IMG/VR virus record: IMGVR_UViG_3300036671_000167
Coordinates: 1 to 62,836 of that record
Reading direction: 5' to 3' (one strand)
From: a virus
DNA: 62,836 nt
The notes under the pieces are model-generated. The model worked only from the letters and a program-made list of their open reading frames with translations. It was not told the DNA's origin and did no database searches. This document shows positions 4,238-38,106 of this stretch, piece after piece. A program made the translations under genes and the position numbers. The stretch's first letter is position 1. Every line of letters begins with the position of its first letter.

Positions 4238-5086
4238 TTAATGTTCTTTAAATTCGCCCATAAATTTACTAGATAAATCAGTTCCTTCTAAACCAGAAGC
4301 CTGATATTTATTAATAAGAGCTCTTGTAAATTGAGGATTTTCTTTTAATGGCTGCATCCATGTTCCAATAAAATCTTTAAGGTTCATAGAATCTTTATCT
4401 TTAATTTGTTCGTAATATTCTGCAGTTTTATAATTATAAAAAGTTCCTGGATTATCTTCTGACTTTAATACAAAATTTGAAAAAGCATATCTTTTTCCAG
4501 ATGTTACTGGCTTAACTCCATGAGCGTGGGGATTAAATGCTCCATGAATTATTAAATCTCCTCTTTCTGGCTTTACTATTAGCTGGTTGTTTTCTTCAGA
4601 TGCATTTTTTTTGTTTCCGTCTTTGTCAATATTTACGTAAAAAACTTCTCCGCCTTTAAAATCTCCAAAATACGCTACGAGGCCATAGTCAAGTTCACAG
4701 CAAGTTTTCCAAACATCAACCTGTGACAATCTGTGGCATTCACCTTTTCCAGGAGAATCAGAATGAGTAAACATTCCTTCGTTCATTTCTGGAGTAATTA
4801 TAAGAACATTTGATTGAGGATGCATTACATATTCTGGATACAGCAAATCGCTTGCTTTTTCCCAAAGCTCGTGCAATTCTTTTAGTGGTGGACTGACTTT
4901 GTTTGCATACCAACTTATAAGAGTGTCTTTGTACTGATCTCCAAGATCGTAATCTCTTAATCCATCTTCTACTAGTTTACATTCTTCATCTGTATAAAAT
5001 CCTTTAAATATAAATACTCCACTAGGTGTTTCATAATCATCAGGAAAAAATGAAGCCTTAATACAATCTTCTCTATCATAAAACAT
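4238..5086 (-). CDS. 2OG-Fe(II) oxygenase (orphan, minus strand)
   Basis: The product is 282 aa with a double-stranded beta-helix of the prolyl-4-hydroxylase type. Iron ligands would be H108-x-D110 (THSDS) and H189 (HAHGV), with R199 (SGKRYAF) for 2-oxoglutarate. YFGDFKGGEVFY corresponds to the NDDYEGGxxxF strand of the five plus-strand oxygenases. It uses O2 and 2-oxoglutarate to hydroxylate a substrate, here unknown. It follows a 51-aa gene at a TAATG overlap and lies far from the main oxygenase operon. The C-terminal 70 residues are a helical extension. Confidence 0.85.
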   Translation of the reverse strand: MFYDREDCIKASFFPDDYETPSGVFIFKGFYTDEECKLVEDGLRDYDLGDQYKDTLISWYANKVSPPLKELHELWEKASDLLYPEYVMHPQSNVLIITPEMNEGMFTHSDSPGKGECHRLSQVDVWKTCCELDYGLVAYFGDFKGGEVFYVNIDKDGNKKNASEENNQLIVKPERGDLIIHGAFNPHAHGVKPVTSGKRYAFSNFVLKSEDNPGTFYNYKTAEYYEQIKDKDSMNLKDFIGTWMQPLKENPQFTRALINKYQASGLEGTDLSSKFMGEFKEH

Positions 5087-16837: not shown

Positions 16838-18244
16838 ATGGCAACAGTAGTAAAAAACTTTAGAATTAAATCAGGTCTGATTGTTGAAGGCACAACAGCC
16901 ACAGTCAATGGTCAAAATATACTTTCAGAAACAGGCGGAGATGCCTATATCCTCAATCTTGTTGGAGGAGCTACTCTTGTAAAGTCTGTTGACTCAGGAG
17001 TATTTGGAGTAGATAGTGTTGGAAATCTTACTATCAATGCTAATACCTTTGATTCCTATGGATCAGCTTCTGCCGCTCAATCTGCTGCAGCAACAGATGC
17101 AACATCAAAGGCCAACGCAGCACAAGCCGCAGCAGAGGCCACAGCCTCAGCAGATGCAACATCAAAGGCCACCGCAGCACAAGCCGCAGCAGAGGCCACA
17201 GCCTCAGCAGATGCAACATCAAAGGCCAACGCAGCACAAGCCGCAGCAGAGGCCACAGCCTTAGCAGATGCAACATCAAAGGCCAACGCAGCACAAGCCG
17301 CAGCAGAGGCCACAGCCTCAGCAGATGCAACATCAAAGGCCAACGCAGCACAAGCCGCAGCAGAGGCCACAGCCTCAGCAGATGCAACATCAAAGGCCAA
17401 CGCAGCACAAGCCGCAGCAGAGGCTTACACAGACTCAGAAGTTGCAGCACTTGTTGATTCAGCACCAGAACTACTTGATACTCTTAATGAGTTAGCAGCA
17501 GCAATTGCAGATAATCCAAATTATGCATCAGATGTTGCTAACTTGGTTGCAACTAAAGCAGATACATCGTATGTTAACTCAGAGATTTCTGATCTTGATA
17601 TAGCCGCACAAGGTTATGCTTCAGCAGCACAGTCTGCAGCAGCATCAGATGCAATATTTAAGGCTAATGCAGCAAAGTCAGAGGCTAAATCTTACACAGA
17701 TGACAAAACATTAGCACTGGGAGATGCTTTTGTCATATATGCAAATGGTACTAAATCAGAAGCAATAGCTACATCGGCAGCGTATGTAGAAAATTTTACT
17801 ACAACAGCAATCAACGCACTTGACACAGACGATATTGAAGAGGGCTCAAACCTTTATTTCACAGATGCTCGTGCACGATATGCTCTTCAAGGCCAATCTC
17901 CAAACTTTGCAACAGTTGATTTAAATTTCATTGCTAAGCAAGTTGCTGCAAGATATTACCCCAGTGAAGCAGGAGTTCATACAGTATATACCTTCGCGGC
18001 GAATGAATATGGTTCAGCAGAATTTCTTGTTAAGGTTTCCCATGGAAGCCATACAGAAATCTCTAAGGTTCTTTTGACTGTAGATGATTCTTATAATATT
18101 GCTTTTACTGAATATGGAATTGTTGGAACCAATGGTTCATTATCAACAGTTTCTGCAGAAATGATTGGTAATAGTTTAAATCTATTAGTAACAGTAAATA
18201 CGGATAGATCAGAAGTTACTGTTGTAGGAACACTACTAATATAA
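16838..18244 (+). CDS. Tail fibre with Ala-rich coiled-coil repeats (468 aa)
   Basis: Residues 1-30 (MATVVKNFRIKSGLIVEGT) are paralogous to the 120-aa protein at 18314. Residues about 85-196 consist of 19-residue repeats of the type ADATSKANAAQAAAEATAS, predicted trimeric coiled coil. A SNLYFTDARARYALQG motif and a C-terminal beta domain follow. The gene is followed by an intrinsic terminator. It is probably a shaft fibre with a receptor-binding tip. Confidence 0.7.
   Translation: MATVVKNFRIKSGLIVEGTTATVNGQNILSETGGDAYILNLVGGATLVKSVDSGVFGVDSVGNLTINANTFDSYGSASAAQSAAATDATSKANAAQAAAEATASADATSKATAAQAAAEATASADATSKANAAQAAAEATALADATSKANAAQAAAEATASADATSKANAAQAAAEATASADATSKANAAQAAAEAYTDSEVAALVDSAPELLDTLNELAAAIADNPNYASDVANLVATKADTSYVNSEISDLDIAAQGYASAAQSAAASDAIFKANAAKSEAKSYTDDKTLALGDAFVIYANGTKSEAIATSAAYVENFTTTAINALDTDDIEEGSNLYFTDARARYALQGQSPNFATVDLNFIAKQVAARYYPSEAGVHTVYTFAANEYGSAEFLVKVSHGSHTEISKVLLTVDDSYNIAFTEYGIVGTNGSLSTVSAEMIGNSLNLLVTVNTDRSEVTVVGTLLI
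17111..17425 (+). repeat. 57-bp tandem repeats (Ala-rich coiled coil)
   Basis: Units start at 17111, 17168, 17225, 17282, 17339 and 17396 (last one partial) and are nearly identical. Each encodes 19 residues. The antisense frame is an open, Leu-rich artefact. Copy number could change by recombination or slippage. Confidence 0.9.
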
Positions 18245-18737: not shown

Positions 18738-21296
18738 ATGTCAACAGTAAGAATTCAAGTACGTAGAGGTTTGGCTTCAGAATGGACCATAGCAAATCCA
18801 ATATTAGCTGCAGGTGAAATGGGTGTTGAAACAAACACTAATTTATTCAAATTTGGTAACGGATCCAGTACATGGACAGCCCTTGTATATGCCAACAATT
18901 CCGATGTAGCAATTGCTGAGATTTCTCAAGATGCAATTGATGCTGCTCTTTCAATGGGTGCAGGATTAACAAAAACATACAACGATGGATCAAATACAAT
19001 TACGATTACTGTTGATACAGATGTTGTATCAACAAAAGCTTTTGCAACTTCAGAAGCAACATTAAAAGCCAATGCAGCACAAGCAGCTGCAGCAACAGAT
19101 GCTACAACTAAAGCAAATGTAGCACAAGCAGCTGCAGCAACAGATGCTACAACTAAAGCAAATGCAGCACAAGCTACGGCAATCATTACTGCACAAGATT
19201 ACACAGCCAGTGCAATAAGTGGAATAAATAACTCACTTTCAGACTACCTTGTTGTTGCAGACAGAGGATTGGCAAACGGAGTAGCCTCACTTGATGCAAG
19301 CGCAAAGATTCCGCAAAATCAGCTTCCTTTAAATTCTTTAGATGGAAACATTTATACATTAGGCTCAATTGGAGCAGACGAGATATTTTCAAATAACGTA
19401 ACCTCAGTTGTTTTATTAACAGCAAATGATGTAAATATTGGTGGAAATTTAACAGTCAATGGAACAACAACAACAGTAAATTCAACAAATGTTTCATATC
19501 AGGACCCAATGATATACCTTGGAGATGGAAACCAATCAAATGTTCTTGACCTTGGTTTTGTAGCAGCATTTAATGATGGAACCTATCAGCACTCTGGTTT
19601 TGTTCGTGATGCAACAGATGGAATTTGGAAATTATTTGCAGGTGTAACAAATGAACCTGGCCAAACAGTAGATTTTAATAGCTACACAAGAGAAGATTTA
19701 GAAGTTGGACGTTTAAACGCAACTTCGGCCAGAATTGGAGATATAACTAATTTAGAAATTCAACATTTAGCTGGAGTAAATTCACCAATTCAAGCACAGC
19801 TTTATTCTAAGCTAGAAGCAATTCCTGCTAATTCAATTGAAGCAATTAATATTCAAAACTCTGCAGTAACTACTGCAAAAATTGCAGACTCTGCAGTAAC
19901 TACTGCAAAAATTGCAGACTCTGCAGTAAGCGAAATTAAAATTGCAACAGATGCAGTAACTACTGCAAAAATTGCAAACTTTGCAGTAAGCGAAATTAAA
20001 ATTGCAACAGATGCAGTAACTACTGCAAAAATTGCAGACTCTGCAGTAAGCGAAATTAAAATTGCAACAGATGCAGTAACTACTGCAAAAATTGCAGACT
20101 CTGCAGTAAGCGAAATTAAAATTGCAACAAATGCAGTAACTACTGCAAAAATTGCAACAGATGCAGTAACTACTGCAAAAATTGCAAATCTATCTATAAC
20201 AAATGACAAAATATCTGATATGGCTTATATATCAACATCAAAAATTGATGGATTAGACAATTCCTTATCATTAAAATCAACAATTGATTCACCAACATTT
20301 ACTGGAAATGTTATTCTTCCAAGTACTACATCAATTGGAGATGTTTCTTCAACAGAAATTGGTTATTTAGATGGAATTACTTCTTCTGTACAAACACAAA
20401 TTACAGCAACAGCAACTAATTTATCTTCACATGCATCAAGTACAACAAATGTTCATGGAATTTCAGATACATCTGCCCTTGCCTTAACTGCTACAGTTAA
20501 CTCCGCCCTTAATCTAAAGGCCCCACTAGCATCACCAACCTTTACAGGCACTGTTAATGGTATTACTAAGACTATGGTTGGATTAGGTTCTGTAGATAAT
20601 ATTTCAGATGCTGCAAAGCCAGTATCGACTGCAACTCAGACAGAATTAAACCTTAAGGCCCCGCTTGCTTCACCAGCCCTTACTGGTGTACCAACTGCGC
20701 CAACAGCAACTGCAGGAACAGCAACTACACAAGTTGCTACTACAGCGTTTGTTGGAACAGCAGTTTCAAATCTTGTAGCATCTGCACCAGCAGCACTTGA
20801 CACTCTTAATGAGTTAGCAACTGCTCTTGGAAATGATGCAAACTTCTCAACAACATTAACAAACAATTTAGCTGCAAAAGCTCCTTTGGCCTCACCAGCA
20901 CTTACTGGTACAGCAACGGTAGTAAATCTTACAGCATCTGGAACAGTAACACTTCCAGCAGCAGGTATTGTATTTTCAGACGGAACTCAAGCCAAGGCTG
21001 GTGTCCCATCAGTAACAGCCTTTGCTACAGCAATCGCAGCATCTGCAACACTTGCAGCAGGACAAGCAGACAAATTTGTTCCACTAACTGGAGCAGTTGT
21101 TATCACCCTTCCAGCAACAGGATACGCAACTGGACAATCAGTTGATTTCTACCAAGTATCAGGAACTGGAGCATCATTTGCTTCAACCAACAGCGCGGTA
21201 GGTACCCCAGGATTAAAGTTTAGAACAACTAACTCAGTTGCAACAGCAATGAAGACTTCAAGTGGATGGTTGGTCTTTGGAGACCTATCAGCATAA
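18738..21296 (+). CDS. Large tail fibre (852 aa) with two repeat types
   Basis: The N-terminus (VRIQVRRGLASEW...FKFGNGSSTW) is paralogous to the 654-aa fibre. Residues about 105-150 have Ala-rich 15-residue repeats. Residues about 376-485 are eleven decapeptides alternating AVTTAKIADS and AVSEIKIATD. Later segments (SPTFTGNVILPS, LKAPLASPTFTGTVNG) are the classic fibre shaft repeats. The C-terminus (VFSDGTQAKAG, then KFRTTNSVATAMK) is the tip. It is the main long-fibre candidate. Confidence 0.75.
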   Translation: MSTVRIQVRRGLASEWTIANPILAAGEMGVETNTNLFKFGNGSSTWTALVYANNSDVAIAEISQDAIDAALSMGAGLTKTYNDGSNTITITVDTDVVSTKAFATSEATLKANAAQAAAATDATTKANVAQAAAATDATTKANAAQATAIITAQDYTASAISGINNSLSDYLVVADRGLANGVASLDASAKIPQNQLPLNSLDGNIYTLGSIGADEIFSNNVTSVVLLTANDVNIGGNLTVNGTTTTVNSTNVSYQDPMIYLGDGNQSNVLDLGFVAAFNDGTYQHSGFVRDATDGIWKLFAGVTNEPGQTVDFNSYTREDLEVGRLNATSARIGDITNLEIQHLAGVNSPIQAQLYSKLEAIPANSIEAINIQNSAVTTAKIADSAVTTAKIADSAVSEIKIATDAVTTAKIANFAVSEIKIATDAVTTAKIADSAVSEIKIATDAVTTAKIADSAVSEIKIATNAVTTAKIATDAVTTAKIANLSITNDKISDMAYISTSKIDGLDNSLSLKSTIDSPTFTGNVILPSTTSIGDVSSTEIGYLDGITSSVQTQITATATNLSSHASSTTNVHGISDTSALALTATVNSALNLKAPLASPTFTGTVNGITKTMVGLGSVDNISDAAKPVSTATQTELNLKAPLASPALTGVPTAPTATAGTATTQVATTAFVGTAVSNLVASAPAALDTLNELATALGNDANFSTTLTNNLAAKAPLASPALTGTATVVNLTASGTVTLPAAGIVFSDGTQAKAGVPSVTAFATAIAASATLAAGQADKFVPLTGAVVITLPATGYATGQSVDFYQVSGTGASFASTNSAVGTPGLKFRTTNSVATAMKTSSGWLVFGDLSA
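19863..20192 (+). repeat. Eleven 30-bp units encoding decapeptides
   Basis: Two alternating 30-bp units encode AVTTAKIADS and AVSEIKIATD, with small changes in single units. The region is 330 bases and exactly in frame, so unit gain or loss keeps the reading frame. Confidence 0.85.
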
Positions 21297-21319: not shown

Positions 21320-22156
21320 ATGTCAAAACAAGCAGGTAGAATGAGCCAAGGAGCAAATGACTTCTTAACACCATATGCACCAACAATTGGAACAGCAACA
21401 AATGTTGGAATAGGTCGTGCTTATGGGAATGGAGCAGTTACAGTAACATTTACCCCAACAGGGCCAAACACTGCAACATCTTTTACGGCATCAGGGTTTT
21501 GTAGCGTACACAATACAACACATTCTGCTACAGGATCATCTTCTCCACTAACTATTACTGGTTTTGGAGTAGGTGCTATTACAACTATTACAGTAACAGG
21601 AACAAATGCTGCAGGAACTGGTCCAGCATCGGCTGCCTCTAATTCTGTAACAGTTACAACAAAACCAAGTGCTCCAACAAGCGCATCTGCAACAGCTGGG
21701 GTTAACTCAAATACAGTTACATGGGTAGCTCCAGCAAATGGAGGAACTGCAATAACTAACTATTTTGTTGTTGGAAATGATGCAACAACTGGTAATACAA
21801 CCTCTTTATCTATATCAATTGCAGATACTGCTGGAACATCACAGTATTACAATGTATATGCAGATAACGCTAATGGAAGATCTGAGGCATCAAATAACAC
21901 AAACACTGTTACTACTTTGTCCCCAACATTTTTTGCGCCACCGTTTTTTCCACCGTTTTTTCCACCAAGCTTCTTCGCACCACCAAGCTTCTTCGCACCA
22001 CCAAGCTTCTTCGCACCACCAAGCTTCTTCGCACCACCAAGCTTCTTCGCACCACCAGTCTTCTTCGCACCACCAAGCTTCTTCGCACCACCAAGCTTCT
22101 TCGCACCACCATACTTCTTTGCACCACCCCGCTTTGGCGGACATAGATTCTACTAA
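21320..22156 (+). CDS. FnIII-domain protein with FFAPP-repeat tail
   Basis: The product is 278 aa. Two fibronectin-III-like domains span residues about 15-115 and 115-195. The C-terminal 80 residues are low complexity: FFAPPFFPPFFPP followed by nine hexapeptides (SFFAPP and variants), ending RFGGHRFY. The repeat has no enzymatic meaning; it could be an aromatic-proline adhesive or a folded PPII rod. A terminator follows, then the oxygenase operon, making this protein a natural candidate substrate for prolyl hydroxylation. The context suggests a virion surface protein. Confidence 0.65.
   Translation: MSKQAGRMSQGANDFLTPYAPTIGTATNVGIGRAYGNGAVTVTFTPTGPNTATSFTASGFCSVHNTTHSATGSSSPLTITGFGVGAITTITVTGTNAAGTGPASAASNSVTVTTKPSAPTSASATAGVNSNTVTWVAPANGGTAITNYFVVGNDATTGNTTSLSISIADTAGTSQYYNVYADNANGRSEASNNTNTVTTLSPTFFAPPFFPPFFPPSFFAPPSFFAPPSFFAPPSFFAPPSFFAPPVFFAPPSFFAPPSFFAPPYFFAPPRFGGHRFY
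21968..22129 (+). repeat. Nine 18-bp units encoding SFFAPP
   Basis: The unit AGCTTCTTCGCACCACCA is perfect in most copies; single copies encode VFFAPP and YFFAPP. The antisense frame is open (Trp/Glu-rich) but is an artefact of the repeat. Confidence 0.9.
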
Positions 22157-22161: not shown

Positions 22162-22205
22162 TAAATCACAATAGCAAGGGGCCGTTCCCTTGCTATTGTG
22201 ATTTA
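22162..22205 (+). terminator. 19-bp stem terminator
   Basis: A perfect 19-bp stem (22162-22180 with 22187-22205) with loop GCCGTT separates the fibre genes from the oxygenase operon. Confidence 0.8.
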
Positions 22206-22215: not shown

Positions 22216-22224
22216 TGATACAAT
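22216..22224 (+). promoter_or_regulatory. Leaderless promoter of the oxygenase operon
   Basis: TGA-TACAAT ends 6 bases before the ATG at 22231. It directly follows the terminator, so the operon has its own control. Confidence 0.6.
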
Positions 22225-22230
22225 GTACTT

Positions 22231-22944
22231 ATGACAAATTTAAACAACAATTATTTATTTTCCTCTAAAGAAGAGCTTTTCCCAGGTGTATGGGTATATA
22301 GAGATGTAATTAAAAAAGAAATTGACGTAATCAATAGACTTAATAAAATTGGTGAATCAGCAGCTAAAGAAGGAGAGTCAAGATTTGATTGGATTTTTGG
22401 ATATGTTGGTTATAGTGAAAAAAGGCCATCATACAGAGATTGCGAAGATATTAAAATTGCAGAAATAAAAAATCCAATTAATGAAACACAAAATTTAGTT
22501 TCAAGCCTATGGAATGATTTAAAAATATCTCAAAACATTGCCGTAGAAGATTATTGTTCAAGATACAATATAAAGATGAATTATTGGGAAGTTATGAATT
22601 GCATTCGCTATGGCGAAAAACAACATTTTCAAGAGCATGCTGATCATGGATTTTCTTATAGCGCAACAGTTTCTTTAGTAGCTTATGTTAATGATGATTA
22701 TGAAGGGGGAAACCTTTATTTTCCCAAGATTGGACTAGATATAAAGCCTAAAGCAGGAGACCTTTATATTTTTCCTTCTACTTATTTATTTTCTCATAGA
22801 GCAATGCCAGTAGAATCTGGAACAAAATTTTCTATTGTAACTATGTTAGATTATAACGACCATTCTCATAAACAAGAATTTATTCAAATGAGATCTAAAT
22901 GGCTAGAAGAAGATATTAAATCTGGCAAAAATCAAAATGCATAG
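22231..22944 (+). CDS. 2OG-Fe(II) oxygenase 1 (P4H-like)
   Basis: The product is 237 aa, fold as in prolyl-4-hydroxylase. Iron ligands H136-x-D138 (QEHADHG) and H189 (FSHRAMP), with K199 (SGTKFS) in place of the usual Arg for 2-oxoglutarate. NDDYEGGNLYF is the shared strand. It would hydroxylate a peptide or small molecule using O2 and 2-oxoglutarate. Leaderless first gene of the operon; overlaps the next gene by 8 bases. Confidence 0.85.
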   Translation: MTNLNNNYLFSSKEELFPGVWVYRDVIKKEIDVINRLNKIGESAAKEGESRFDWIFGYVGYSEKRPSYRDCEDIKIAEIKNPINETQNLVSSLWNDLKISQNIAVEDYCSRYNIKMNYWEVMNCIRYGEKQHFQEHADHGFSYSATVSLVAYVNDDYEGGNLYFPKIGLDIKPKAGDLYIFPSTYLFSHRAMPVESGTKFSIVTMLDYNDHSHKQEFIQMRSKWLEEDIKSGKNQNA

Positions 22945-23659
22945 CATAGAAGCTTATGTTATAAGAAAAGAATTAGGAAAAGTTGATTGCTTAACGGCTA
23001 AAAGAGATTGGATGAACGCAACTTTTGATGCTCACGCATATAAATGTTTTCCAGTTAGCTTAACAAATCAGTTAGGATGGGGAATATCTTTTCCAGAAGA
23101 TATATCTTTTATTTGGGATGGAATTTCAGATAGCACTTCAGATCATGTTAAAATTTTATCTGGAGATAAATATGCTTATTCTGGAAGAGCAAATGGAACT
23201 ATAAGCTTTAATACAGGCATAATGTTTAAAACAAATAAAGATATAAGCTTGCTTTCTATGCCAGTTCCAAATTTTTTTATTGACGGAGCAGTCCCATTTA
23301 CAACATTAATAAGCACATCATTTTTTGCAGGGGAGCTACCAGTAGCATGGATGATAACAAAACCAAATGAAGTTATAACAATAAAAGCCAACACTCCAAT
23401 TATTGCAATACTTCCAATAGATTTGGTTTCTATAAACAATTCAGAAATAACCTTAAAACCATTGTCTAGCTTAAAATCACCGCTATTTGATTCTGATGAA
23501 TATTCTAAGGCAATATACAACTTAAATAAAACAGCAAACTGGTCCAATTTTTATAGGGATGCAGTAGATCATTTAAAAAGAAAAATAGGTTCTCATCAAG
23601 TAAAATCAATAAGGCTAAAAATAAATGATGATATAATAAATAAAGGAGAAAATAAATGA
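22937..23659 (+). CDS. DUF6065-like protein in the oxygenase operon
   Basis: The product is 240 aa. The N-terminal pattern RDWMNATFDAHAYKCFPVSL, then NQLGWGISFPEDISFIWDG, resembles DUF6065: R-W-M, C-(F/L)-P-(L/V), N-x-x-GW, W-(D/N)-G. Members are known from phages and bacteria with unknown function. A middle part with PNEVITIKANTPIIAILPI is beta-rich. Both ends overlap oxygenase genes (8 and 4 bases), so it is likely made in step with them, perhaps as a substrate-binding or adaptor partner. The family assignment rests on memory of the pattern. Confidence 0.6.
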   Translation: MHSIEAYVIRKELGKVDCLTAKRDWMNATFDAHAYKCFPVSLTNQLGWGISFPEDISFIWDGISDSTSDHVKILSGDKYAYSGRANGTISFNTGIMFKTNKDISLLSMPVPNFFIDGAVPFTTLISTSFFAGELPVAWMITKPNEVITIKANTPIIAILPIDLVSINNSEITLKPLSSLKSPLFDSDEYSKAIYNLNKTANWSNFYRDAVDHLKRKIGSHQVKSIRLKINDDIINKGENK

Positions 23660-24330
23660 AATTAGAAAATAGCTGGAACGATAATAGACCAAAGTCAATT
23701 ACGCCATCTGGATTTTTTGGAAACTCCCCTGATAATATTGTAGAAATTAGAGATTTTTTAAGTTTAGATGAACGAGAAAGACTGATGAACTTTGCATTAA
23801 ATAATAAGATTTGGGATATAACAGAAACTCATAGAGATGAAGATGGATTAGTTTTATATGATCATAAAGTTTGGGAAGATAGAGTTTGCACTTACAATTC
23901 TTTAATGGCTTCAGACCCAGGCATACTTGATCTTGTGTATAGCATGATAGCAAGATTAAAAATTCAAGTTGATTCATTTTTTAATGTTGATGCAAAAGAA
24001 ACTGGTCCAGCAATTGTTAGGTGGCCAATTGGAACAAGACAAGAGCCTCATGCAGACAAAGAATTTCATTCTGGTCCAGAAAAAGGAAGACCAAATGATT
24101 TTCCGTGGTACGATCTAGCAGGATTATTTTATTTCAATGATGATTATGAAGGTGGAGAGCTATATTTTCCACAACATGGAATTGAATTTCAGCCAGTTGC
24201 TGGAGCAGCATATTTTTTCCCAGGCGATATGAATTATACGCATGGGGTACGCCCAATAAAATCTGGTAATAGATTTACGTCCCCATTTTTTTGGACAATA
24301 AATAAACATACAGGAGAAAAACAACCATGA
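23656..24330 (+). CDS. 2OG-Fe(II) oxygenase 2 (P4H-like)
   Basis: The product is 224 aa. Iron ligands H132-x-D134 (EPHADKE) and H196 (YTHGVRP); R206 (SGNRFTS) binds 2-oxoglutarate. NDDYEGGELYF precedes the catalytic core as in its neighbours. It is the most canonical of the five, close to phage prolyl-4-hydroxylase-like proteins. ATGA overlaps at both ends show coupled translation. Substrate unknown. Confidence 0.87.
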   Translation: MKLENSWNDNRPKSITPSGFFGNSPDNIVEIRDFLSLDERERLMNFALNNKIWDITETHRDEDGLVLYDHKVWEDRVCTYNSLMASDPGILDLVYSMIARLKIQVDSFFNVDAKETGPAIVRWPIGTRQEPHADKEFHSGPEKGRPNDFPWYDLAGLFYFNDDYEGGELYFPQHGIEFQPVAGAAYFFPGDMNYTHGVRPIKSGNRFTSPFFWTINKHTGEKQP

Positions 24331-25145
24331 ATAAATTAGATTACGTAGAGCTTTACCCAAATATTGATGTATATAGAAATGTTTTAAAAGATGTAGATCA
24401 AATGTATAGCGTCATGAATGATTCTGAAAAAAACTCCAAAGGAAAATATTTTTTAAAAACCTGGGATCCTTGGGCACATTTTGGAACCTACAGTCAAAAA
24501 AAAGATAGTAAAGAAATTTTAGCTGATACTTTATCTCATGAAATGTTTATTAAAGAAAAAAATTTTGTTGAAGAAGTTGAAGAAGCTTATAACAAAGTAA
24601 TCTTAGATTATGTACAAAGACATAAAATTAATTTGCCCGATGGCTGGCGATTTAGTGGATGCTCATATTCTAAGTATAACGCTAATATTGATACTTTACT
24701 AAACAACATGACAATGCAATACCACACAGACCACATAACTTCTCAAAAAGATATGCCTGGAGATAAATTTTTTATAACATGTACAATGTATATAAATGAT
24801 GATTACGAAGGTGGAGATATTGAGTTTTACGTAGACAAAAAGCTTATTAATCATAAGCCACAAGCAGGAGACATTTTGGTTTTTCCTTCAACTGAACCTT
24901 ATTTTCATGGAGTAAAAACAATTAACACAAATGAAAAGTTTTTTGTAAGAAATTTTATTATGACTCCCCACAATGGAACAGAGGAATGGCTTGAAAACCA
25001 AAGAAAATTTGGTGCATACAGATGGGCAAAAATGGAGCAGGAAAGAATAGATTACGATGATAAAAGAAACATGATTTATTTTAGTGATGAACAATTACTT
25101 CCTTACGAAGAATATGTAGCTTCTAAGAAAGGCCAAGGAAATTAA
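24327..25145 (+). CDS. 2OG-Fe(II) oxygenase 3
   Basis: The product is 272 aa. Iron ligands H133-x-D135 (QYHTDHI) and H194 (YFHGVKT), with K204 (NEKFFV) at the co-substrate position. NDDYEGGDIEF is present. A C-terminal helical extension (about 60 residues, rich in R, E and K) is unique to this one and could bind substrate or partners. Coupled by ATGA to oxygenase 2; oxygenase 4 begins 1 base after its stop. Confidence 0.83.
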   Translation: MNKLDYVELYPNIDVYRNVLKDVDQMYSVMNDSEKNSKGKYFLKTWDPWAHFGTYSQKKDSKEILADTLSHEMFIKEKNFVEEVEEAYNKVILDYVQRHKINLPDGWRFSGCSYSKYNANIDTLLNNMTMQYHTDHITSQKDMPGDKFFITCTMYINDDYEGGDIEFYVDKKLINHKPQAGDILVFPSTEPYFHGVKTINTNEKFFVRNFIMTPHNGTEEWLENQRKFGAYRWAKMEQERIDYDDKRNMIYFSDEQLLPYEEYVASKKGQGN

Positions 25146-25146
25146 A

Positions 25147-25896
25147 ATGAAAAGAAACATGATTATAACTAAACACAAAGAAGACATTACTGAGTATGAA
25201 AATTTTTTAACACCAGAAGAATGCAAATCAATAATTGATGTTTTGGCAATTAAAATGGAAAAAGAACAGTTAAAGTGGATGCCAATATCATTTTATGAGT
25301 CATATTCATCTGGTACTCCAGATATAGATGACCCAGATACAATTGCATCTAGACTTCCAGGAGATTTTTTTCAATTGCTTAGACAAAGAGTCATTGATGC
25401 AACAGCAGAAATGGCTGGCAAAGATCCAAAACAAATGTCACAAATAAGTTGGCACTCACAAAGATGGGCACCAGGTGCTTTTGCAAATATGCATTCTGAC
25501 AACACCTCTAATGATGGAGTCTCGGGTGCATTTACTAGAAGCAGATATGCAACCTTTCTTTATTTAAACGATGACTTTGAAGACGGGATTTTAAATTTTA
25601 AACATGGATTAAAAATTGTTCCAAAAACTGGAACTTTAGTAACATTTGCTGGAGGATTTCATAATATGCATGAAGTCACTACAGTAAAAAAAGCTATACG
25701 ATACACACTAGGATCATTTTGGGATGATAGAGAAGAAGAAGATTATCCGCAAGAAACAAGAGATAAATGGGCAGAAGAACTTTCAAAAGTAAGAGCTCAT
25801 CAAAAAATAGAAGCTTCAGAATGGGAAGCGGTTAGACAAGAAGGATTAAGAATAACCGCTCAAGGTAAAAAATATCCAGCAGAGGAAGTAGAGTGA
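25147..25896 (+). CDS. 2OG-Fe(II) oxygenase 4
   Basis: The product is 249 aa. Iron ligands H116-x-D118 (MHSDNTS) and H175 (NMHEVTT); R185 (AIRYTLG) for 2-oxoglutarate. The shared strand is altered to NDDFEDGILNF. A charged C-terminal helix follows the core. GTGA overlap with the next gene. The different loop before the core (SRLPGDFFQLL) suggests another substrate than oxygenases 1-3. Confidence 0.84.
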   Translation: MKRNMIITKHKEDITEYENFLTPEECKSIIDVLAIKMEKEQLKWMPISFYESYSSGTPDIDDPDTIASRLPGDFFQLLRQRVIDATAEMAGKDPKQMSQISWHSQRWAPGAFANMHSDNTSNDGVSGAFTRSRYATFLYLNDDFEDGILNFKHGLKIVPKTGTLVTFAGGFHNMHEVTTVKKAIRYTLGSFWDDREEEDYPQETRDKWAEELSKVRAHQKIEASEWEAVRQEGLRITAQGKKYPAEEVE

Positions 25897-26546
25897 TAAA
25901 AAATAATATTGAGTTTAAGCAGTTTGTGATGTTTGACTTACAAATTTTAAATCCTAATATATGGTATTGGGAAAATGCTTTAAGTTTCCCCGATCACCTT
26001 GTTGATTTTATTGAAGAAATCGATTTAAATGAGCTATCTTATAATAAAATTACAAAATGGAAAAATTGGACTGCAAGCGATGACACATCCATAATATATG
26101 GAGCAACAAAAAACATACTATCTTCTGAATTAAAAAGTAGTACGGGATCAGACGCAACAGACAAAAAAACTTTGTATATTAGCAATAGCTTTTTAATGGC
26201 TTTTGAAATGTGTTCAAATAGATATTTGGCTGGACATGGATTAGATGAAAATGATTATAGGCTAGAATTGAATCATGTTCCGATTAAAAAATGGAATCAA
26301 GGGCAATCTATGGGCCCACATTTTGACGGACAAGATGGCAATTCAGACCTTGCATTTTCTTTAGTTTCTTATCCAAACGATAATTATGAAGGAGGAGAAA
26401 TTAATTTTCCAAATCAAAACATTACTATTAAACCAAAAGCTGGGAGCATGATAATGTTTCCATCACAGTTACCTTATCTTCATGAGGTAAAGCCTATTAT
26501 TTCTGGAACTAGATATATGAGTTCGGTTCATGTATATATTAAGTAA
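25893..26546 (+). CDS. 2OG-Fe(II) oxygenase 5
   Basis: The product is 217 aa, starting with GTG inside the previous stop. Iron ligands H143-x-D145 (GPHFDGQ) and H197 (YLHEVKP); R207 (SGTRYMS). NDNYEGGEINF is present. It ends the operon; the collagen-like fibre follows with its own leaderless promoter 21 bases later. Substrate unknown, but the position directly before a Gly-x-Y protein is suggestive. Confidence 0.84.
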   Translation: MIKNNIEFKQFVMFDLQILNPNIWYWENALSFPDHLVDFIEEIDLNELSYNKITKWKNWTASDDTSIIYGATKNILSSELKSSTGSDATDKKTLYISNSFLMAFEMCSNRYLAGHGLDENDYRLELNHVPIKKWNQGQSMGPHFDGQDGNSDLAFSLVSYPNDNYEGGEINFPNQNITIKPKAGSMIMFPSQLPYLHEVKPIISGTRYMSSVHVYIK

Positions 26547-26551: not shown

Positions 26552-26560
26552 TGGTATAAT
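26552..26560 (+). promoter_or_regulatory. Leaderless promoter of collagen-like fibre
   Basis: TGG-TATAAT ends exactly 6 bases before the ATG at 26567. Confidence 0.6.
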
Positions 26561-26566
26561 AAAAAA

Positions 26567-27685
26567 ATGACTACAACAGGTAAAGGGTTTAGATATCCTC
26601 AGTATACAGACACTCCTGATGTTCCTAGAGACTTAGGTTATTTAGCTGCCGACGTAGATGCTTACTTAGACGCTCATCCAGGTCCACAGGGGCCTTCAGG
26701 CACCTTAGAGGTAGACCCTCTAGTTACTACAGTGCCAGCAGGTACAGCTGGATCTGTGCAAAATATTGGCACTGCTGAAAACGCTATATTAAAATTAACT
26801 CTTCCTAGAGGAATTGATGGAGTATTGGGTGGTCCTGGTCCGTCAAACGTTTTATCAGTAGGAAATATTGTTTCTGGAATTAACGCTAGTGCAACAATTA
26901 CTGGATCTAGTCCGTCTCAAGTTTTAAATCTTGTGTTGCCTCAAGGGCCACAAGGAATACAAGGGCCACAAGGAATACAAGGGCCTACCACTTTGGCAGT
27001 AAATGCTTTAACAATAACTGGAACCGCTGGAACAAATGCTTCTGTAACAAATACTGGGACATCCACAAATGCAGTATTTCAATTTACAATCCCTAGAGGA
27101 GCAACTGGAGCCACAGGTGCGCAAGGTATCCAAGGGGTTCCTGGATCAAGTGCAACAATTGATCCAATCCCAACAACAATATCGTTAAATATTCCAACTA
27201 CATCTGTTTATGGAGTAAACTCTAATTGGTACCCCCTTGCAACAAATCTTTACTCTATTGGACAACCAATAGATTCTGGCTCTGGAGTTCCTTCAAATAA
27301 ATTTTGGAAAACTATTTATTCTAATACAGGTACAATTAATACTTCTGACGAAAGATTAAAAACAGAAGTTTTTCCTACCGACCTAGGGCTTAATTTTATT
27401 AATTCTTTAAACCCAGTAAAATATAAATTTATTGAGGGAGGGAAAGAAATAGTTGACGGAGATCTAATATCAATACCTGGATCAAGAACACATTATGGAT
27501 TAATTGCTCAGGAAGTTAAAGAATCTCTAGTAGATGCCAAGATAGAAGATTTTGCTGGTTGGGTTCAAATAGACATGTCAGATGAAGATTCCATGCAAGG
27601 ATTAAGATATGATCAATTTGTATCCCCTTTAATTAAATCTGTGCAAGAATTAACTGCGAGAATTAAAGCACTAGAAGAGAAGTAA
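26567..27685 (+). CDS. Collagen-like fibre with S74 autoprocessing domain
   Basis: The product is 372 aa. Residues about 37-48 (HPGPQGPSGTLE) and 124-140 (QGPQGIQGPQGIQGP) are collagen-like Gly-x-Y blocks, with another at GATGATGAQGIQGVPG. A beta-rich middle follows. The last 110 residues fit Peptidase_S74 (intramolecular chaperone): TSDERLKTEV with the Ser and Lys, then GLIAQEV and YDQFVSPLIKSVQEL. The chaperone trimerises the fibre and then cleaves itself off. Proline and glycine content makes it a natural target for prolyl hydroxylation by the operon before it. Confidence 0.85.
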   Translation: MTTTGKGFRYPQYTDTPDVPRDLGYLAADVDAYLDAHPGPQGPSGTLEVDPLVTTVPAGTAGSVQNIGTAENAILKLTLPRGIDGVLGGPGPSNVLSVGNIVSGINASATITGSSPSQVLNLVLPQGPQGIQGPQGIQGPTTLAVNALTITGTAGTNASVTNTGTSTNAVFQFTIPRGATGATGAQGIQGVPGSSATIDPIPTTISLNIPTTSVYGVNSNWYPLATNLYSIGQPIDSGSGVPSNKFWKTIYSNTGTINTSDERLKTEVFPTDLGLNFINSLNPVKYKFIEGGKEIVDGDLISIPGSRTHYGLIAQEVKESLVDAKIEDFAGWVQIDMSDEDSMQGLRYDQFVSPLIKSVQELTARIKALEEK

Positions 27686-29575: not shown

Positions 29576-29914
29576 ATGGAAATCTTAAATCAAAAAAGCC
29601 AGATTATTGAAGAAACTCGTCTAGGAATTTATGTCTGGGAGATGCCAGACGGTAGATGGATAGGAGACGATGATGGGAACTTCTTATCCGTAACCTCTAC
29701 AAAAGGAAATAGATCAAAGATTTCTTTTTTAACAGATGCCGTTAAGCATTATGGCATTTATGAGGGTCAGCCTAAATTTTTATCTGGACGGCGTAAAATT
29801 GATGATGAAGAATTTGAACATCAAAACCAAAGACTAAAATGGGGATTAACTCCAGACAAACTAGATATTGGTGAATATAAAGATTCAGTACTCAGAGGCG
29901 GGGAAATGCAATGA
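29576..29914 (+). CDS. Small protein before the portal gene (112 aa)
   Basis: The 112 aa contain WEMPDGRWIGDDDGNFLSV and a basic-acidic C-terminus (LTPDKLDIGEYKDSV). It overlaps the portal gene at ATGA. In many actinophages a short acidic protein precedes the portal and its role is unknown; this may be a portal- or terminase-associated factor. No known motif is present. Confidence 0.6.
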   Translation: MEILNQKSQIIEETRLGIYVWEMPDGRWIGDDDGNFLSVTSTKGNRSKISFLTDAVKHYGIYEGQPKFLSGRRKIDDEEFEHQNQRLKWGLTPDKLDIGEYKDSVLRGGEMQ

Positions 29915-31494
29915 CCCAGTTTGTTGAAGATAATAATGAAAAGCAATACGAAGTTGGAATTAAAAATAGCTCTGACATGTTTTCTTTTAAAAAAGAAGTA
30001 GAGCACGTAGACCCATTTGCAGTTGGGCTAGAGGAACTTAAAAAGGTAAGAGGACTAGGGTCTAATTTTAAAAGAAAAGTAAATAGAGATTTTGCTAAAG
30101 CGTTTACTGGACAAGACGGCTCAGGAACCCAACAAAATCTATTGCAGCAAGCAGTAACAGGCTATGCTATGTTTGATCTAGTTCAGCCAATTTATAACCA
30201 AGACTACTTATCTCAAATATATGAAGTTTCAACTTATAATTACGCAGCAATTAATGCAAAGGTTGCAAACATAGTTGGCCTTGGATACTCGTTTATGGAA
30301 ACAAGAAAAACTAATGATGCTATTGATTCTATTACAGATGCTGTTCAGCTAAATAGAGCAAGAAAAAAATTAAACAAGTTAAAGCAAGATCTGCAAGACT
30401 GGCTTGATTCCACCAACGATGAAGATACATTTACAGAAACCCTAATTAAGGTATACACAGATTTAGAATCAACTGGCAACGGCTACCTTGAAATAGGAAG
30501 AACTACTGCTGGAGATATTGGATACATTGGGCATATCCCCGCAAAGACAATGAGAGTCAGAAGACTCAGAGATGGCTTTATGCAATTGCTTTATGGAAAG
30601 GCTGTCTTTTTTAGAAACTTTGGAGATACAGAAACAGTAAATCCAATTGGCGAGTCTGAAGATAGACCAAATGAGATTATCCATTTGAAGAAGTATACAC
30701 CAATGAATAACTATTATGGAATTCCAGATATTGTTGCAGCACAGGTTGCTTTAACTGGAAATGAATTTGCTGGCAGATACAACCTTGACTATTTTGAAAA
30801 CAAAGCGGTTCCAAGATATATTATTACTGTAAAGGGAGCCAAGCTTTCTCCAGAGTCAGAGCGTAAATTATTAGAGTTTTTTCAGGTTGGTCTAAAAGGG
30901 AAAAACCATAGGTCACTTTATATTCCCTTGCCAGCAGATACTCCAGATAGCAAAGTAGAATTTAAGATGGAGCCCGTAGAAGCTGGCTCACAAGAATCAT
31001 CATTTAACATTTATCGACAATCAAATAGAGACGAAATCTTGCTAGCACACAGAGTTCCAATTAATAAAATTGGAGTACCAGAGGGAGTATCCTTGGCAAA
31101 TGCCAGAGATGCGGATAAAACATTTAAAGAACAAGTTTGTCGTCCAGCTCAAATGAGATTAGAAAAAAGAATTAACTCTATTATTCAGGAAAAAACAGAT
31201 GCCCTTAAAATTAAATTTGAAGAGCTTACTTTGACAGACGAAGATACTCAATCTCAAATAGATGAAAGATATTTAAGAATGCAGGTATTAACTCCAAATG
31301 AGGTTAGAATTAGAAAAGGTATGATTCCTATTGATGGTGGAGACGAAGTAGTTGAATTAAAACCTCAACAAGCCGCAGATCAAAAAGCCACGGCTGGGAA
31401 AACAAGAGCTAGAGATTCTGAAAGATCAGCCACTTCTTCCGATAAAGTGGGAGAAGGAAGAAATGCTAAAGGTGAAGGAAGTAAAGTAGATTAA
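29911..31494 (+). CDS. Portal protein
   Basis: The product is 527 aa, typical of PBSX/HK97-type portals. Landmarks are NYAAINAKVANIVGLGYSF in the stem/wing region, YGIPDIVAAQVALTGNEFA, SSFNIYRQSNRDEILLAHRVP and a charged C-terminal tail. It forms the dodecameric ring through which DNA enters and exits and to which the tail connector binds. Its start overlaps the small gene before it (ATGA). Followed by the promoter at 31511. Confidence 0.85.
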   Translation: MTQFVEDNNEKQYEVGIKNSSDMFSFKKEVEHVDPFAVGLEELKKVRGLGSNFKRKVNRDFAKAFTGQDGSGTQQNLLQQAVTGYAMFDLVQPIYNQDYLSQIYEVSTYNYAAINAKVANIVGLGYSFMETRKTNDAIDSITDAVQLNRARKKLNKLKQDLQDWLDSTNDEDTFTETLIKVYTDLESTGNGYLEIGRTTAGDIGYIGHIPAKTMRVRRLRDGFMQLLYGKAVFFRNFGDTETVNPIGESEDRPNEIIHLKKYTPMNNYYGIPDIVAAQVALTGNEFAGRYNLDYFENKAVPRYIITVKGAKLSPESERKLLEFFQVGLKGKNHRSLYIPLPADTPDSKVEFKMEPVEAGSQESSFNIYRQSNRDEILLAHRVPINKIGVPEGVSLANARDADKTFKEQVCRPAQMRLEKRINSIIQEKTDALKIKFEELTLTDEDTQSQIDERYLRMQVLTPNEVRIRKGMIPIDGGDEVVELKPQQAADQKATAGKTRARDSERSATSSDKVGEGRNAKGEGSKVD

Positions 31495-31510
31495 ATCTGC
31501 TCAACTGCTA

Positions 31511-31542
31511 TTTGCCTTTTTAGATAACTAAGTATAAAATTA
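31511..31542 (+). promoter_or_regulatory. Two-block promoter, copy 1
   Basis: TTTGCCTTTT, 13 bases, ATAAAATTA. The identical arrangement occurs at 37192-37223 before the major tail gene. A start at about 31548 would make the protease message leaderless. Confidence 0.55.
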
Positions 31543-31547
31543 AGCAT

Positions 31548-32915
31548 ATGAACATAGAAAAAAGTCAGTGGTCTTCTGACGGACAAAACCTTCATTTATC
31601 TGTTCCTTTTACAAAAGTAAACAGAGAAAATAGAACCGTATCTGGATTTGCCACACTTGATAATATTGATCAAACAGGCGATGTCGTAACAGCAGAAGCA
31701 AGCATGAAAGCATTTGAAGCATTTAGAGGAAACCTTCGTGAGATGCATCAGCCACTTGCAGTAGGAAAGGTTATATCATTTAAACCAGAAACTTACTACG
31801 ATCAAAAAACAAAAGAATTTTATAACGGAGTTTATGTAACATCATACATCTCTAAAGGCGCTCAAGATACATGGGAAAAAATTTTAGACGGAACCCTTTC
31901 TGGATTTTCAATTGGCGGAAAGATCAAAGAATCAGATGATGAAATGAATAAAGCAACAGGGCAGACTATAAGATTTATTAAGGACTATGATTTAGTTGAA
32001 CTATCAATAGTTGATTCTCCCGCAAATGAAATGTGCAATATCATCTCTATTGAAAAAATGAATGGTCAACTTATATTTAAAGGAATGGCAGCAGATGTTG
32101 TCACAGAAAATATTTTTTATTGTGAAGATAGCGAATCTGTTTTTATCTCAACAGACAAGACATACTCATCTCCAATTACTGGAAAAGATGCTACGCTAAT
32201 TGGTTGGGTTGAAAGCTCAGATCAAAATAAATCCAAAGAGATAGATAAGATTCTTGCTTCATTTAAGAAGTCAAGAGTTCCGTTGCCTGCAACACAAACA
32301 ATAGCAAAACAGGCAAACGTACAAGGAGGTAATGAAATGGAAAAACTAAACGTACATGGTACAGATTCAGTTGCAGCAGAGACACCAGTTGTTGAAGCCC
32401 CAGTAGTTGAAGAAGTTGAAGTCGTTGAAGAGACCATGGTAGATGCAACCGCATCTGCCGTTGAAGAAGCACCAGCTGTAGAAACAGCAGATGCTGAATC
32501 TGCTTCTGTAGATATCTTTAAGTCAGTTGATGCAGAAGCACCAGCTGCAGTTGAAGTTGAACAGCCTGATTTTGCAAAAATGTTAGTGGACCTAAAGGGA
32601 TTCTTTGCAGATACTCTTAGCAAGGCTACAGAGACAAATGCATTGCAGGTTTCAGAAATCAAAGAAACTGTAGAAACTTTTAGCAAGGGCTTAAATGCTC
32701 AGATCACAGAATTAGCAGAAAAGCACAGCGCACTTAGTGTAGCTGTAATAGAAATAAAGGGCACTATTGATGGTGTTCAGAAGCGTGTAGATGCCGTTGA
32801 AGGCGATACAGCAATTAAGAAGTCTTCAGACCTTGGCGGGTCTGCAGAAGCAACAATCACAAAATCAAAATGGAACGGTTCTTTCCTCGGTTCCGTAAAC
32901 GAAATATTTAACTAG
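31548..32915 (+). CDS. Prohead protease with C-terminal scaffold region
   Basis: The product is 455 aa. Residues 1-165 form an HK97/XkdF-type U35 serine protease: H67 (REMHQP), S121 (GFSIGG) and E151 (ELSIVDSPAN), the same spacing as HK97 (H65, S114, E148). Residues 264-455 are acidic, Ala/Val/Glu-rich and helical, as in scaffolding proteins. An internal start at 32337 would make the scaffold alone. The protease matures the capsid and is itself degraded. A promoter lies directly upstream. Confidence 0.85.
   Translation: MNIEKSQWSSDGQNLHLSVPFTKVNRENRTVSGFATLDNIDQTGDVVTAEASMKAFEAFRGNLREMHQPLAVGKVISFKPETYYDQKTKEFYNGVYVTSYISKGAQDTWEKILDGTLSGFSIGGKIKESDDEMNKATGQTIRFIKDYDLVELSIVDSPANEMCNIISIEKMNGQLIFKGMAADVVTENIFYCEDSESVFISTDKTYSSPITGKDATLIGWVESSDQNKSKEIDKILASFKKSRVPLPATQTIAKQANVQGGNEMEKLNVHGTDSVAAETPVVEAPVVEEVEVVEETMVDATASAVEEAPAVETADAESASVDIFKSVDAEAPAAVEVEQPDFAKMLVDLKGFFADTLSKATETNALQVSEIKETVETFSKGLNAQITELAEKHSALSVAVIEIKGTIDGVQKRVDAVEGDTAIKKSSDLGGSAEATITKSKWNGSFLGSVNEIFN
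32337..32915 (+). CDS. Probable separate scaffold protein from internal start
   Basis: An in-frame ATG (codon 264 of the protease gene) is preceded 7 bases upstream by AAGGAGG, the best ribosome binding site in the head module. It yields a 192-aa acidic, coiled-coil-like scaffold (MEKLNVHGTD...). This is the arrangement of lambda C/Nu3, where one gene makes both protease and scaffold. Translation is inferred from the site alone. Confidence 0.65.
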   Translation: MEKLNVHGTDSVAAETPVVEAPVVEEVEVVEETMVDATASAVEEAPAVETADAESASVDIFKSVDAEAPAAVEVEQPDFAKMLVDLKGFFADTLSKATETNALQVSEIKETVETFSKGLNAQITELAEKHSALSVAVIEIKGTIDGVQKRVDAVEGDTAIKKSSDLGGSAEATITKSKWNGSFLGSVNEIFN

Positions 32916-32930
32916 GGTAGGTAAAAAAAT

Positions 32931-33980
32931 ATGAGCAATGAAACATTAGAAAAAGCAATCGCAGCTGGCACAACAGCTACTGCAGGATTTGCATCAAACA
33001 CAGGTGGTTCAGGAGTACACGTAGCGTCAGAAGCTGGCAACGGTGGACTTCTAAACCCAGAACAATCAGCTCGCTTCCTAGACTATTTGTTCGACGCAAC
33101 CGTAATTGGTAAGGTCGCACGTACAGTTCGAATGAAGTCAGACACAACAGAAATTGATCGCATGTCAGTAGGCGAAAAGCTTATGAAGCTTGCAACAGAG
33201 GGTGACGACACTTCTTCAAACAAGGGTGTTACTTTCTCAAAGATTTCTCTTACAACTAAGAAGCTACGTCTTGACTGGGAGCTCTCAACAGAGTCACTAG
33301 AAGATAACATTGAAGGAGCCGACCTTGAAGATCACATTGCACGTTTGATGGCAACTCAAGCTGGTAACGACATTGAAGATGTTCTACTTAATGGTAACAC
33401 AGCACTTTCAAGCGATTCTCTATACAAGGCCTTTGATGGTGTTGTAAAGAAAGCTAAAGCATCAGGCCACGTCGTAGACGCAGCTGGAGCAGCAGTTTCT
33501 CGTGAAGTCTTTAACAAGGCACTCAAAGCAATGCCTCGTAAGTACAAGCAGCGTCGTGGAGACCTTCGTTTCCTAGCTGGCTCAAACTTAATTCAGGACT
33601 TCCTATACAACAACAGCATTGGTACAAACCAGACAATTCCACAGGATATTGCATCAAGCGTAATCCGTGGTGGAGTTGCACCACTTGGTGGACCAGCAGG
33701 ATACGTAGCGCCATTTGCGTTTGGTATTCCAGTTGTTGAAGTTCCACTACTTCCAGAAACACAGGCTGGAGATTACGCATCTCCAACAGGCTCACACGGT
33801 GACATCCACTTGACATTCCCAAATAACGTAGTTATTGGTATCAAGCGTGACGTAACTGTTTACCGCTTCTTCTGGCCACGCAAGGACTCAATTGAGTACA
33901 CAATGTACACAAGAGTAGGCGTACAGATTGAACAAGCAGATGCTTGGGTAGTCGTAAAGAACGTTAAAGTTGCTTCTTAA
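32931..33980 (+). CDS. Major capsid protein (HK97 fold)
   Basis: The product is 349 aa. The order N-arm, E-loop-like segment (VGEKLMKLATEGDD), SLTTKKLRLDWELSTESLED, DIEDVLLNGNT and the C-terminal PNNVVIGIKRDVTVYRFFWP is that of HK97-fold capsids. The reading uses many CGT/CGC and CTT codons, unlike most neighbours (AGA, TTA), which fits translational selection on an abundant protein. It is preceded by the scaffold and followed by a terminator. Confidence 0.9.
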   Translation: MSNETLEKAIAAGTTATAGFASNTGGSGVHVASEAGNGGLLNPEQSARFLDYLFDATVIGKVARTVRMKSDTTEIDRMSVGEKLMKLATEGDDTSSNKGVTFSKISLTTKKLRLDWELSTESLEDNIEGADLEDHIARLMATQAGNDIEDVLLNGNTALSSDSLYKAFDGVVKKAKASGHVVDAAGAAVSREVFNKALKAMPRKYKQRRGDLRFLAGSNLIQDFLYNNSIGTNQTIPQDIASSVIRGGVAPLGGPAGYVAPFAFGIPVVEVPLLPETQAGDYASPTGSHGDIHLTFPNNVVIGIKRDVTVYRFFWPRKDSIEYTMYTRVGVQIEQADAWVVVKNVKVAS

Positions 33981-33996
33981 TTAAGAATTAACTATC

Positions 33997-34028
33997 GAAA
34001 GGCCCCTAATTAATTTTAGGGGCTTTTC
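33997..34028 (+). terminator. Terminator after capsid gene
   Basis: A 13-bp stem (33997-34009 with 34016-34028, one G-U pair), loop TTAATT region, ending in TTTT. It limits capsid-level transcription reaching the connector genes. Confidence 0.75.
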
Positions 34029-34043
34029 ATTTTAATTATACAA

Positions 34044-34052
34044 TGCTATAAT
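34044..34052 (+). promoter_or_regulatory. Extended -10 promoter of connector genes
   Basis: TGC-TATAAT, followed by a leader with AAGGAGA before the ATG at 34080. Confidence 0.5.
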
Positions 34053-34079
34053 AGTTTTACCTAGAAAAAGGAGAATTAA

Positions 34080-34475: not shown

Positions 34476-34490
34476 ACCCAAGCATAAAAA

Positions 34491-35471: not shown

Positions 35472-35472
35472 T

Positions 35473-37191: not shown

Positions 37192-37223
37192 TTTGCCTTT
37201 TGGTTGATTGTAAGATAAAATTA
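37192..37223 (+). promoter_or_regulatory. Two-block promoter, copy 2
   Basis: TTTGCCTTTT, 13 bases, ATAAAATTA, as at 31511-31542. It is followed by an 80-base leader ending in CAGGAGG before the tail tube ATG. Confidence 0.55.
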
Positions 37224-37303
37224 TACCAAGAGGAAATGAGCCTAGCCAGCTTGATTTAAAGTAAGTCAATATATATATATTTATTTAACAGGAGGTTTTA
37301 CAA

Positions 37304-38002: not shown

Positions 38003-38016
38003 TACAATTAAATAAT

Positions 38017-38048
38017 AAAATACCCCCTAAGAAATTAGGGGGTATTTT
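38017..38048 (+). terminator. Terminator after tail tube gene
   Basis: A perfect 14-bp stem (38017-38030 with 38035-38048), loop GAAA, ending TATTTT. Confidence 0.8.
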
Positions 38049-38069
38049 ATTGCTATGATATTTTCATTA

Positions 38070-38078: not shown

Positions 38079-38106
38079 AATATAGACGATCCTAGGAGGA
38101 TATAAA

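Follow-up and report, generated by a model that had tools for sequence, protein, structure and literature searches.

A phage operon of five predicted peptidyl hydroxylases and its candidate substrate, an FFxPP-repeat protein of the fibre locus

The oxygenase operon and its flanks

The stretch analyzed here (the window) comprises the 62,836 nucleotides of the IMG/VR virus record IMGVR_UViG_3300036671_000167 and is part of an uncultured tailed phage, with portal, protease, capsid, and tape-measure genes at 29911-47693. Positions 22231-26546 hold one translationally coupled operon of five intact 2-oxoglutarate (2OG)-Fe(II) oxygenases and one DUF6065 gene, arranged as OX1-DUF6065-OX3-OX4-OX5-OX6 (Table 1). 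Along the operon, the gene junctions are overlaps of 8, 4, and 4 nt, a gap of 1 nt, and a further overlap of 4 nt. The five enzymes all exceed the Pfam PF13640 gathering score of 27 bits and keep the HxD...H ligands, with a Lys or Arg 10 residues past the second His. A sixth oxygenase, OXa, lies remote from the operon and is more divergent, its PF13640 score being below the cut-off; its ligands are intact (H108xD110, H189, and R199), and many of its clade mates sit in oxygenase clusters of other phages. The iron triad and the basic residue for 2OG are thus present in all six oxygenases of the window. An earlier note on this DNA had described five prolyl 4-hydroxylase (P4H)-like enzymes with intact ligands in one operon interrupted by a DUF6065-like gene, and a sixth enzyme elsewhere, all of which is borne out. 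It had also placed the operon between an FFAPP-repeat protein and a collagen-like fibre: The former is found upstream as described, whereas the latter is only weakly collagen-like, with 14 Gly-X-Y triplets in three short runs and a Pfam Collagen match of E=0.85.

Table 1. Coordinates of the operon, its flanking elements, and the remote oxygenase in the window
Feature	Position	Strand	Remarks
FFxPP-repeat protein	21320..22156	+	Proposed substrate; C-terminal FFAPP/FFPP repeats; fn3-like N-terminal part in relatives
FFPP/SFFAPP tandem repeat region	21929..22129	+	12-nt and 18-nt units; Tandem Repeats Finder 21938-21966, 21962-22128
19-bp inverted repeat	22162..22205		Between FFxPP gene and operon; possible transcription terminator
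Extended -10 promoter TGATACAAT	22216..22230	+	Ends 6 nt before OX1 ATG (leaderless)
OX1, P4H-like 2OG-Fe(II) oxygenase	22231..22944	+	PF13640 E 2e-13; H136xD138...H189...K199
DUF6065 protein	22937..23659	+	PF19541 E 3e-29; predicted dUTPase-like fold
OX3 oxygenase	23656..24330	+	PF13640 E 6e-7; profile matches prolyl 3-hydroxylase 1 (P3H1), bacterial P4H
OX4 oxygenase	24327..25145	+	PF13640 E 1e-8; weak PDB matches only
OX5 oxygenase	25147..25896	+	PF13640 E 2e-7; P3H1 E 4e-10, also bacterial P4H
OX6 oxygenase	25893..26546	+	PF13640 E 1e-11; PBCV-1 vCPH 5c5t E 1e-9, bacterial P4H
Extended -10 promoter TGGTATAAT	26552..26566	+	Ends 6 nt before ATG of Gly-X-Y fibre gene
Weakly collagen-like fibre	26567..27685	+	Peptidase_S74 chaperone end; not the consistent partner
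OXa, sixth oxygenase	4238..5086	-	PF13640 E 4e-4

Enzyme type

Compared with the PDB, the profiles of OX1, OX3, OX5, and OX6 match prolyl 4-hydroxylases, prolyl 3-hydroxylase 1, the lysyl hydroxylase LH3, and PKHD-type hydroxylases, and these four return no match of named function outside those hydroxylase types. The AlphaFold model of OX1—the one enzyme covered by the fold evidence—has a predicted local distance difference test (pLDDT) score of 91.5. The structural comparison with prolyl 4-hydroxylase, proposed in the earlier note, was carried out with this model: A Foldseek search of the PDB returns prolyl hydroxylases in all top 50 places (E 2e-11 to 2e-9), among them the algal P4H with (Ser-Pro)5, vCPH of the algal virus PBCV-1, and EF-Tu prolyl hydroxylases. 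The double-stranded β-helix of OX1 is hence closest to solved prolyl hydroxylases. As judged by the four profiles and the OX1 fold, the enzymes fall into the peptidyl (prolyl) hydroxylase branch, which supports, and does not prove, a peptide substrate. Such a substrate could also lie in the host, where modification of a protein or surface component, e.g., EF-Tu, would aid infection. P4H/EF-Tu complexes are among the best Foldseek matches, and the prolyl hydroxylases of Pseudomonas putida and Bacillus anthracis act on EF-Tu. However, a host target predicts neither the tie to a fibre-locus phage repeat protein nor the joint gain and loss described below, and is considered unlikely.

Conservation and selection

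A search with OX6 alone yields 46 viral loci. The neighbourhood search in related phages, likewise suggested earlier, finds the whole gene order in about 40 other IMG/VR contigs, so the operon arrangement is not a product of chance. In nearly all window-type loci with enough flank, the order is fibre-FFPP protein-OX1-DUF6065-OX3-OX4-OX5-OX6, where FFPP denotes the FFxPP-repeat protein. In a tree of 189 representative oxygenases, the five operon enzymes of the window fall into five separate clades with local supports of 0.77-0.99. A recent tandem duplication of the oxygenases is rejected because each enzyme has its own clade over 74-85 loci. The strict motif is kept in 427 of 439 clade members, and the median ratio of nonsynonymous to synonymous substitution rates (dN/dS) of 0.05-0.07 in the five clades indicates purifying selection—with dS near 1, these ratios are rough. 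Read most simply, these sequence patterns reflect the maintenance of five distinct functions.

The FFxPP-repeat protein and its association with the oxygenases

The FFPP protein is represented by 125 distinct sequences, with units that are mostly FFAPP (548), FFPP (525), or FFSPP (232). The repeat region has a median length of 63 residues and consists to 76% of Pro, Phe, or Tyr. Domains of the fn3 type are recognizable in several of these proteins, and 68 of the 125 continue for more than 100 residues beyond the final unit. Several such extensions look like Hint/intein splicing domains, the best Pfam match being below the cut-off; such ends are seen at L050:12110-13024, L050:3034-4371, L029:4838-6214, and L040:1-852 (L numbers denote loci and records of the comparison). 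The Hint-like domain of L045/L050 retains the N-terminal Cys, TxxH, and the terminal HNK, and in others it is apparently degenerate; one FFPP copy of L050 also bears a PASTA-like domain. The near-identical phage L008, whose OX6 is 99% identical to that of the window, has a repeat block of another length and unit composition, a difference that would suit a fast-evolving surface element. In the genomes of 84,980 bacterial and archaeal species, a search for the repeat as a DNA pattern gives ten matches, none of them a true repeat protein: They are noncoding or interrupted frames or single chance matches lacking a repeat array. No description of an FFPP-repeat phage protein was found in open-licence papers.

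Association with the oxygenases was assessed in a portal-ascertained sample, chosen blind to oxygenases and repeats, for which enough upstream DNA was required and to which the window and the cultured phage LukeCage were added. Of these records, 22 carry the oxygenase cluster together with the FFPP gene, 14 carry neither, and none is discordant (Fisher p 3e-10, uncorrected for kinship). On the portal tree, four changes are seen for each trait, and all four are joint. In a second test, 2.9 million viral contigs were scanned for the FFPP repeat by its DNA pattern only, again blind to oxygenases. The scan yields 111 stretches with an FFPP open reading frame; 94 contain an oxygenase within the stretch, and 109 belong to oxygenase-carrying records. 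Of the two exceptions, L134 has its FFPP gene extending up to the edge of the stretch, and L078 is a fragment of 7.8 kb. Among 90 distinct FFPP reading frames with at least 2 kb downstream, 75 have an oxygenase at most 3 kb away on the same strand. Most records are fragments, and absences are provisional. Repeat protein and enzymes are thus gained and lost together, and every cluster with enough upstream DNA has an FFPP gene; relatives that carry the oxygenases without a proline-rich fibre, which would have spoken against the earlier note, were looked for in these records and none was found.

The pairing extends to other phage types. Proteins combining fn3, FFPP, and Cys-rich parts accompany oxygenases in L098, L099, and L144, and the pairing is also seen in L087. 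The records of L126, L106, and L162, 51-172 kb in size, each hold twelve PF13640 genes and an FFPP protein, their portal, where found, being only 22% similar. A second FFPP gene with its own downstream oxygenase occurs in L066, L146, and L152. As a separate observation, the fragment L155:316-11199 carries ten oxygenases, the end of an FFPP-Hint protein, and a short-chain dehydrogenase (PF00106); a further gene appears FkbM-methyltransferase-like by eye, a lead only, which Pfam did not confirm.

The collagen-like fibre and the transcription units

The Gly-X-Y fibre at 26567 is the obvious second candidate, the oxygenases then acting as in animal collagen or in mimivirus. The gene stands directly after the operon in close relatives of the window, and the enzymes are homologous to P4H and lysyl hydroxylase. 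However, in the portal-matched records its presence shows no association with the oxygenase cluster (14/7/8/5, p=1). L040, L049, L202, L204, L227, L234, and L251 keep the cluster with no Gly-X-Y gene detected, and L188, L195, L200, L210, and L219 have Gly-X-Y fibres without a cluster. Classical collagen P4H requires Pro in the Y position. The Gly-X-Y proteins of these loci carry Pro in X in 822 of 2147 triplets and in Y in only 82, and the fibre of the window has it in Y in one of its 14. Collagens from bacteria and viruses in which hydroxylation is lacking are reported to show this distribution of Pro over X and Y (PMC3368898). A collagen prolyl 4-hydroxylase system—a Gly-X-Y substrate with Pro in Y that co-occurs with its enzymes—is not found here.

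The fibre gene also appears to be transcribed on its own. The pattern TGNTANAAT-N6-ATG occurs at five sites in the window (2200, 2408, 22216, 26552, and 51444), against 0.47 expected. Among relatives, the motif precedes the first oxygenase in 27 of 53 cases, internal oxygenases in 21 of 310, Gly-X-Y genes in 57 of 72, and FFPP genes in 0 of 73. Because the motif is conserved before the first oxygenase and the Gly-X-Y genes and is far rarer elsewhere, the operon and the fibre gene are probably separate leaderless transcription units; leaderless promoters are known in actinobacteria. The collagen-like fibre is rejected as the partner on the co-occurrence and the Y-position counts, and its hydroxylation by these enzymes is improbable. 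The FFPP protein is indicated instead since it travels with the oxygenases across related and unrelated phages. From the earlier proposal of a phage system hydroxylating its own fibres, the tie of the enzymes to a proline-rich fibre-locus protein of the phage survives—with the FFxPP-repeat protein as the consistent partner—and collagen as the substrate does not.

The DUF6065 protein

The DUF6065 model (pLDDT 93.2) strongly resembles unnamed phage proteins and weakly resembles dUTPases in Foldseek (E about 1e-3, template modelling score normalized to the target up to 0.69). The oxygenase set could, hence, make or repair modified nucleotides or DNA with DUF6065 as the nucleotide-binding partner, a reading that DUF6065 keeps alive. 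It would also fit the weak similarity of OX1 to Tet_JBP (E 0.027) and the location of some cyanophage 2OG oxygenases among replication genes, as in S-B64—that of S-CAM7 adjoins a tail protein. The operon, however, occupies a structural locus, its nearest solved relatives are peptidyl hydroxylases, and the conserved DUF6065 columns hold no recognizable dUTPase signature as judged by eye, which makes a nucleotide substrate highly improbable. In some relatives, the DUF6065 gene beside the oxygenases is doubled or is joined by a more divergent look-alike (e.g., L049:7022-7735).

Phage context and neighbouring genes

The portal of the window is 56% identical to those of Streptomyces phages, e.g., LukeCage of Stanwilliamsviridae, which makes an actinobacterial host likely; a freshwater origin is guessed from the kind of phage. 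In LukeCage, ribonucleotide reductase is followed by short genes and the portal, with no fibre cassette in that interval. In the window, the interval between ribonucleotide reductase (6895-8826) and portal is filled by a large fibre locus that includes the operon. No cultured phage matched the DNA of the window at 20-44 kb, and none matched DUF6065. Neighbouring fibre genes carry long in-frame tandem repeats with 57-nt and 30/60-nt units (12277-12570, 17094-17424, and 19857-20187). A tRNA-Ile with anticodon TAT lies at 2322-2397; bacteria normally read AUA with a modified CAT anticodon, and TAT is unusual. The gene at 2423-3034 is sulfotransferase-like (PF00685 E 0.005, below the cut-off). In L085/L081, two further genes of this kind, bearing a similar HIPKTSG/HIPRTSG motif, lie between FFPP-linked oxygenases (L085:10205-11723). 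Pfam did not confirm these two; as leads only, they hint at a decoration of hydroxyl groups.

Comparison with known systems

The closest relatives by both profile and fold are the bacterial P4H and EF-Tu prolyl hydroxylases (B. anthracis 3itq and P. putida 4iw3); these are, however, single cellular enzymes outside any phage operon with a repeat protein. The best Foldseek matches of OX1 are to Chlamydomonas Cr-P4H-1 (2jig and 3gze), solved with a (Ser-Pro)5 peptide, but this is a cellular enzyme of cell-wall glycoproteins with about 16% identity to OX1. Among viruses, mimivirus L593 is a prolyl hydroxylase. Mimivirus modifies its own repetitive structural proteins via 2OG hydroxylases, including the lysyl hydroxylase/glucosyltransferase L230 (PMC9546862). 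It differs in being a eukaryotic giant virus with true collagen substrates, no FFPP repeat, and no tandem operon described. PBCV-1 vCPH (5c5t), likewise encoded by a virus, is a P4H that OX6 resembles in profile and OX1 in fold, and it acts on Pro-containing peptides (PMC7019647); it is a single algal-virus enzyme, whereas the phages compared here link one repeat protein with five to twelve enzymes. The 2OG-Fe(II) oxygenases of cyanophages and pelagiphages (phrog_61) belong to the same broad family at about 28-31% identity. Several occur in 14 of 16 T4-like cyanophages, where DNA repair or 2OG/nitrogen sensing have been suggested as roles (PMC3037559), their function being described as undetermined (PMC11561400).

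Proposed function of the operon

Taken from sequence and models, the operon is probably a phage-encoded peptidyl-hydroxylation cassette whose substrate would be the (F)FxPP repeat of the fn3/Hint fibre-locus protein. Five P4H-type 2OG-Fe(II) dioxygenases would be made from their own leaderless promoter and would hydroxylate these repeats, the gene for the repeat protein lying immediately before the operon. Within a repeat, the two adjacent prolines are the most probable site, and Phe is conceivable as the target in place of Pro. Each enzyme may be specialized for a position, a residue, or a step, with DUF6065 as an accessory, and the modified repeat would probably tune how stiff, soluble, or adhesive a tail-associated fibre is. 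Inferred in this proposal are the FFPP protein as substrate, the choice of Pro, the sharing of tasks among the enzymes, and what the modification does to the virion.

Several points weigh against this proposal. OX4 has weak PDB matches only, and the dUTPase-like fold of DUF6065 is left unexplained by a hydroxylation cassette. Only two of the four joint changes rest on well-supported branches of the portal tree, so a kinship-corrected test cannot reach significance. Ten other second FFPP copies lack an oxygenase of their own. PBCV-1 has an active P4H, yet hydroxyproline was not detected in its virions (PMC7019647). Finally, neighbouring genes can be inherited together by linked transfer, and the FFPP gene and the cluster, adjacent in most loci and hence movable in one transfer, might be mere neighbours in a mobile fibre cassette with no functional link. 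This is very unlikely: FFPP gene and oxygenases stay paired when the gene arrangement or the phage type differs, and some second FFPP copies have an oxygenase to themselves, whereas the adjoining Gly-X-Y gene comes and goes freely.

The peptidyl-hydroxylation cassette can tentatively be extended to a modification system confined to viruses, which is possible but has the odds against it. In such a system, five to twelve hydroxylases would make a multiply hydroxylated, possibly further decorated adhesive fibre from the hydrophobic (F)FxPP repeat—a loose parallel to the repeat proteins of the mussel foot and of plant cell walls. DUF6065 would belong to this system, as would, in some phages, tailoring genes of the sulfotransferase-like or another kind and a Hint-like domain after the repeat.

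The analysis names one specific candidate substrate, the neighbouring FFxPP-repeat protein. If the proposal is true, a phage would be hydroxylating a structural protein of its own by means of several nonredundant peptidyl hydroxylases, and the repeat substrate would be short and easily synthesized, e.g., as FFPPFFPP or SFFAPPSFFAPP. 2OG-Fe(II) oxygenases are common in environmental phages, where their role has been called undetermined or cryptic (PMC11561400 and PMC9301287); the virus-only system, if it exists, would give many of them a common role.

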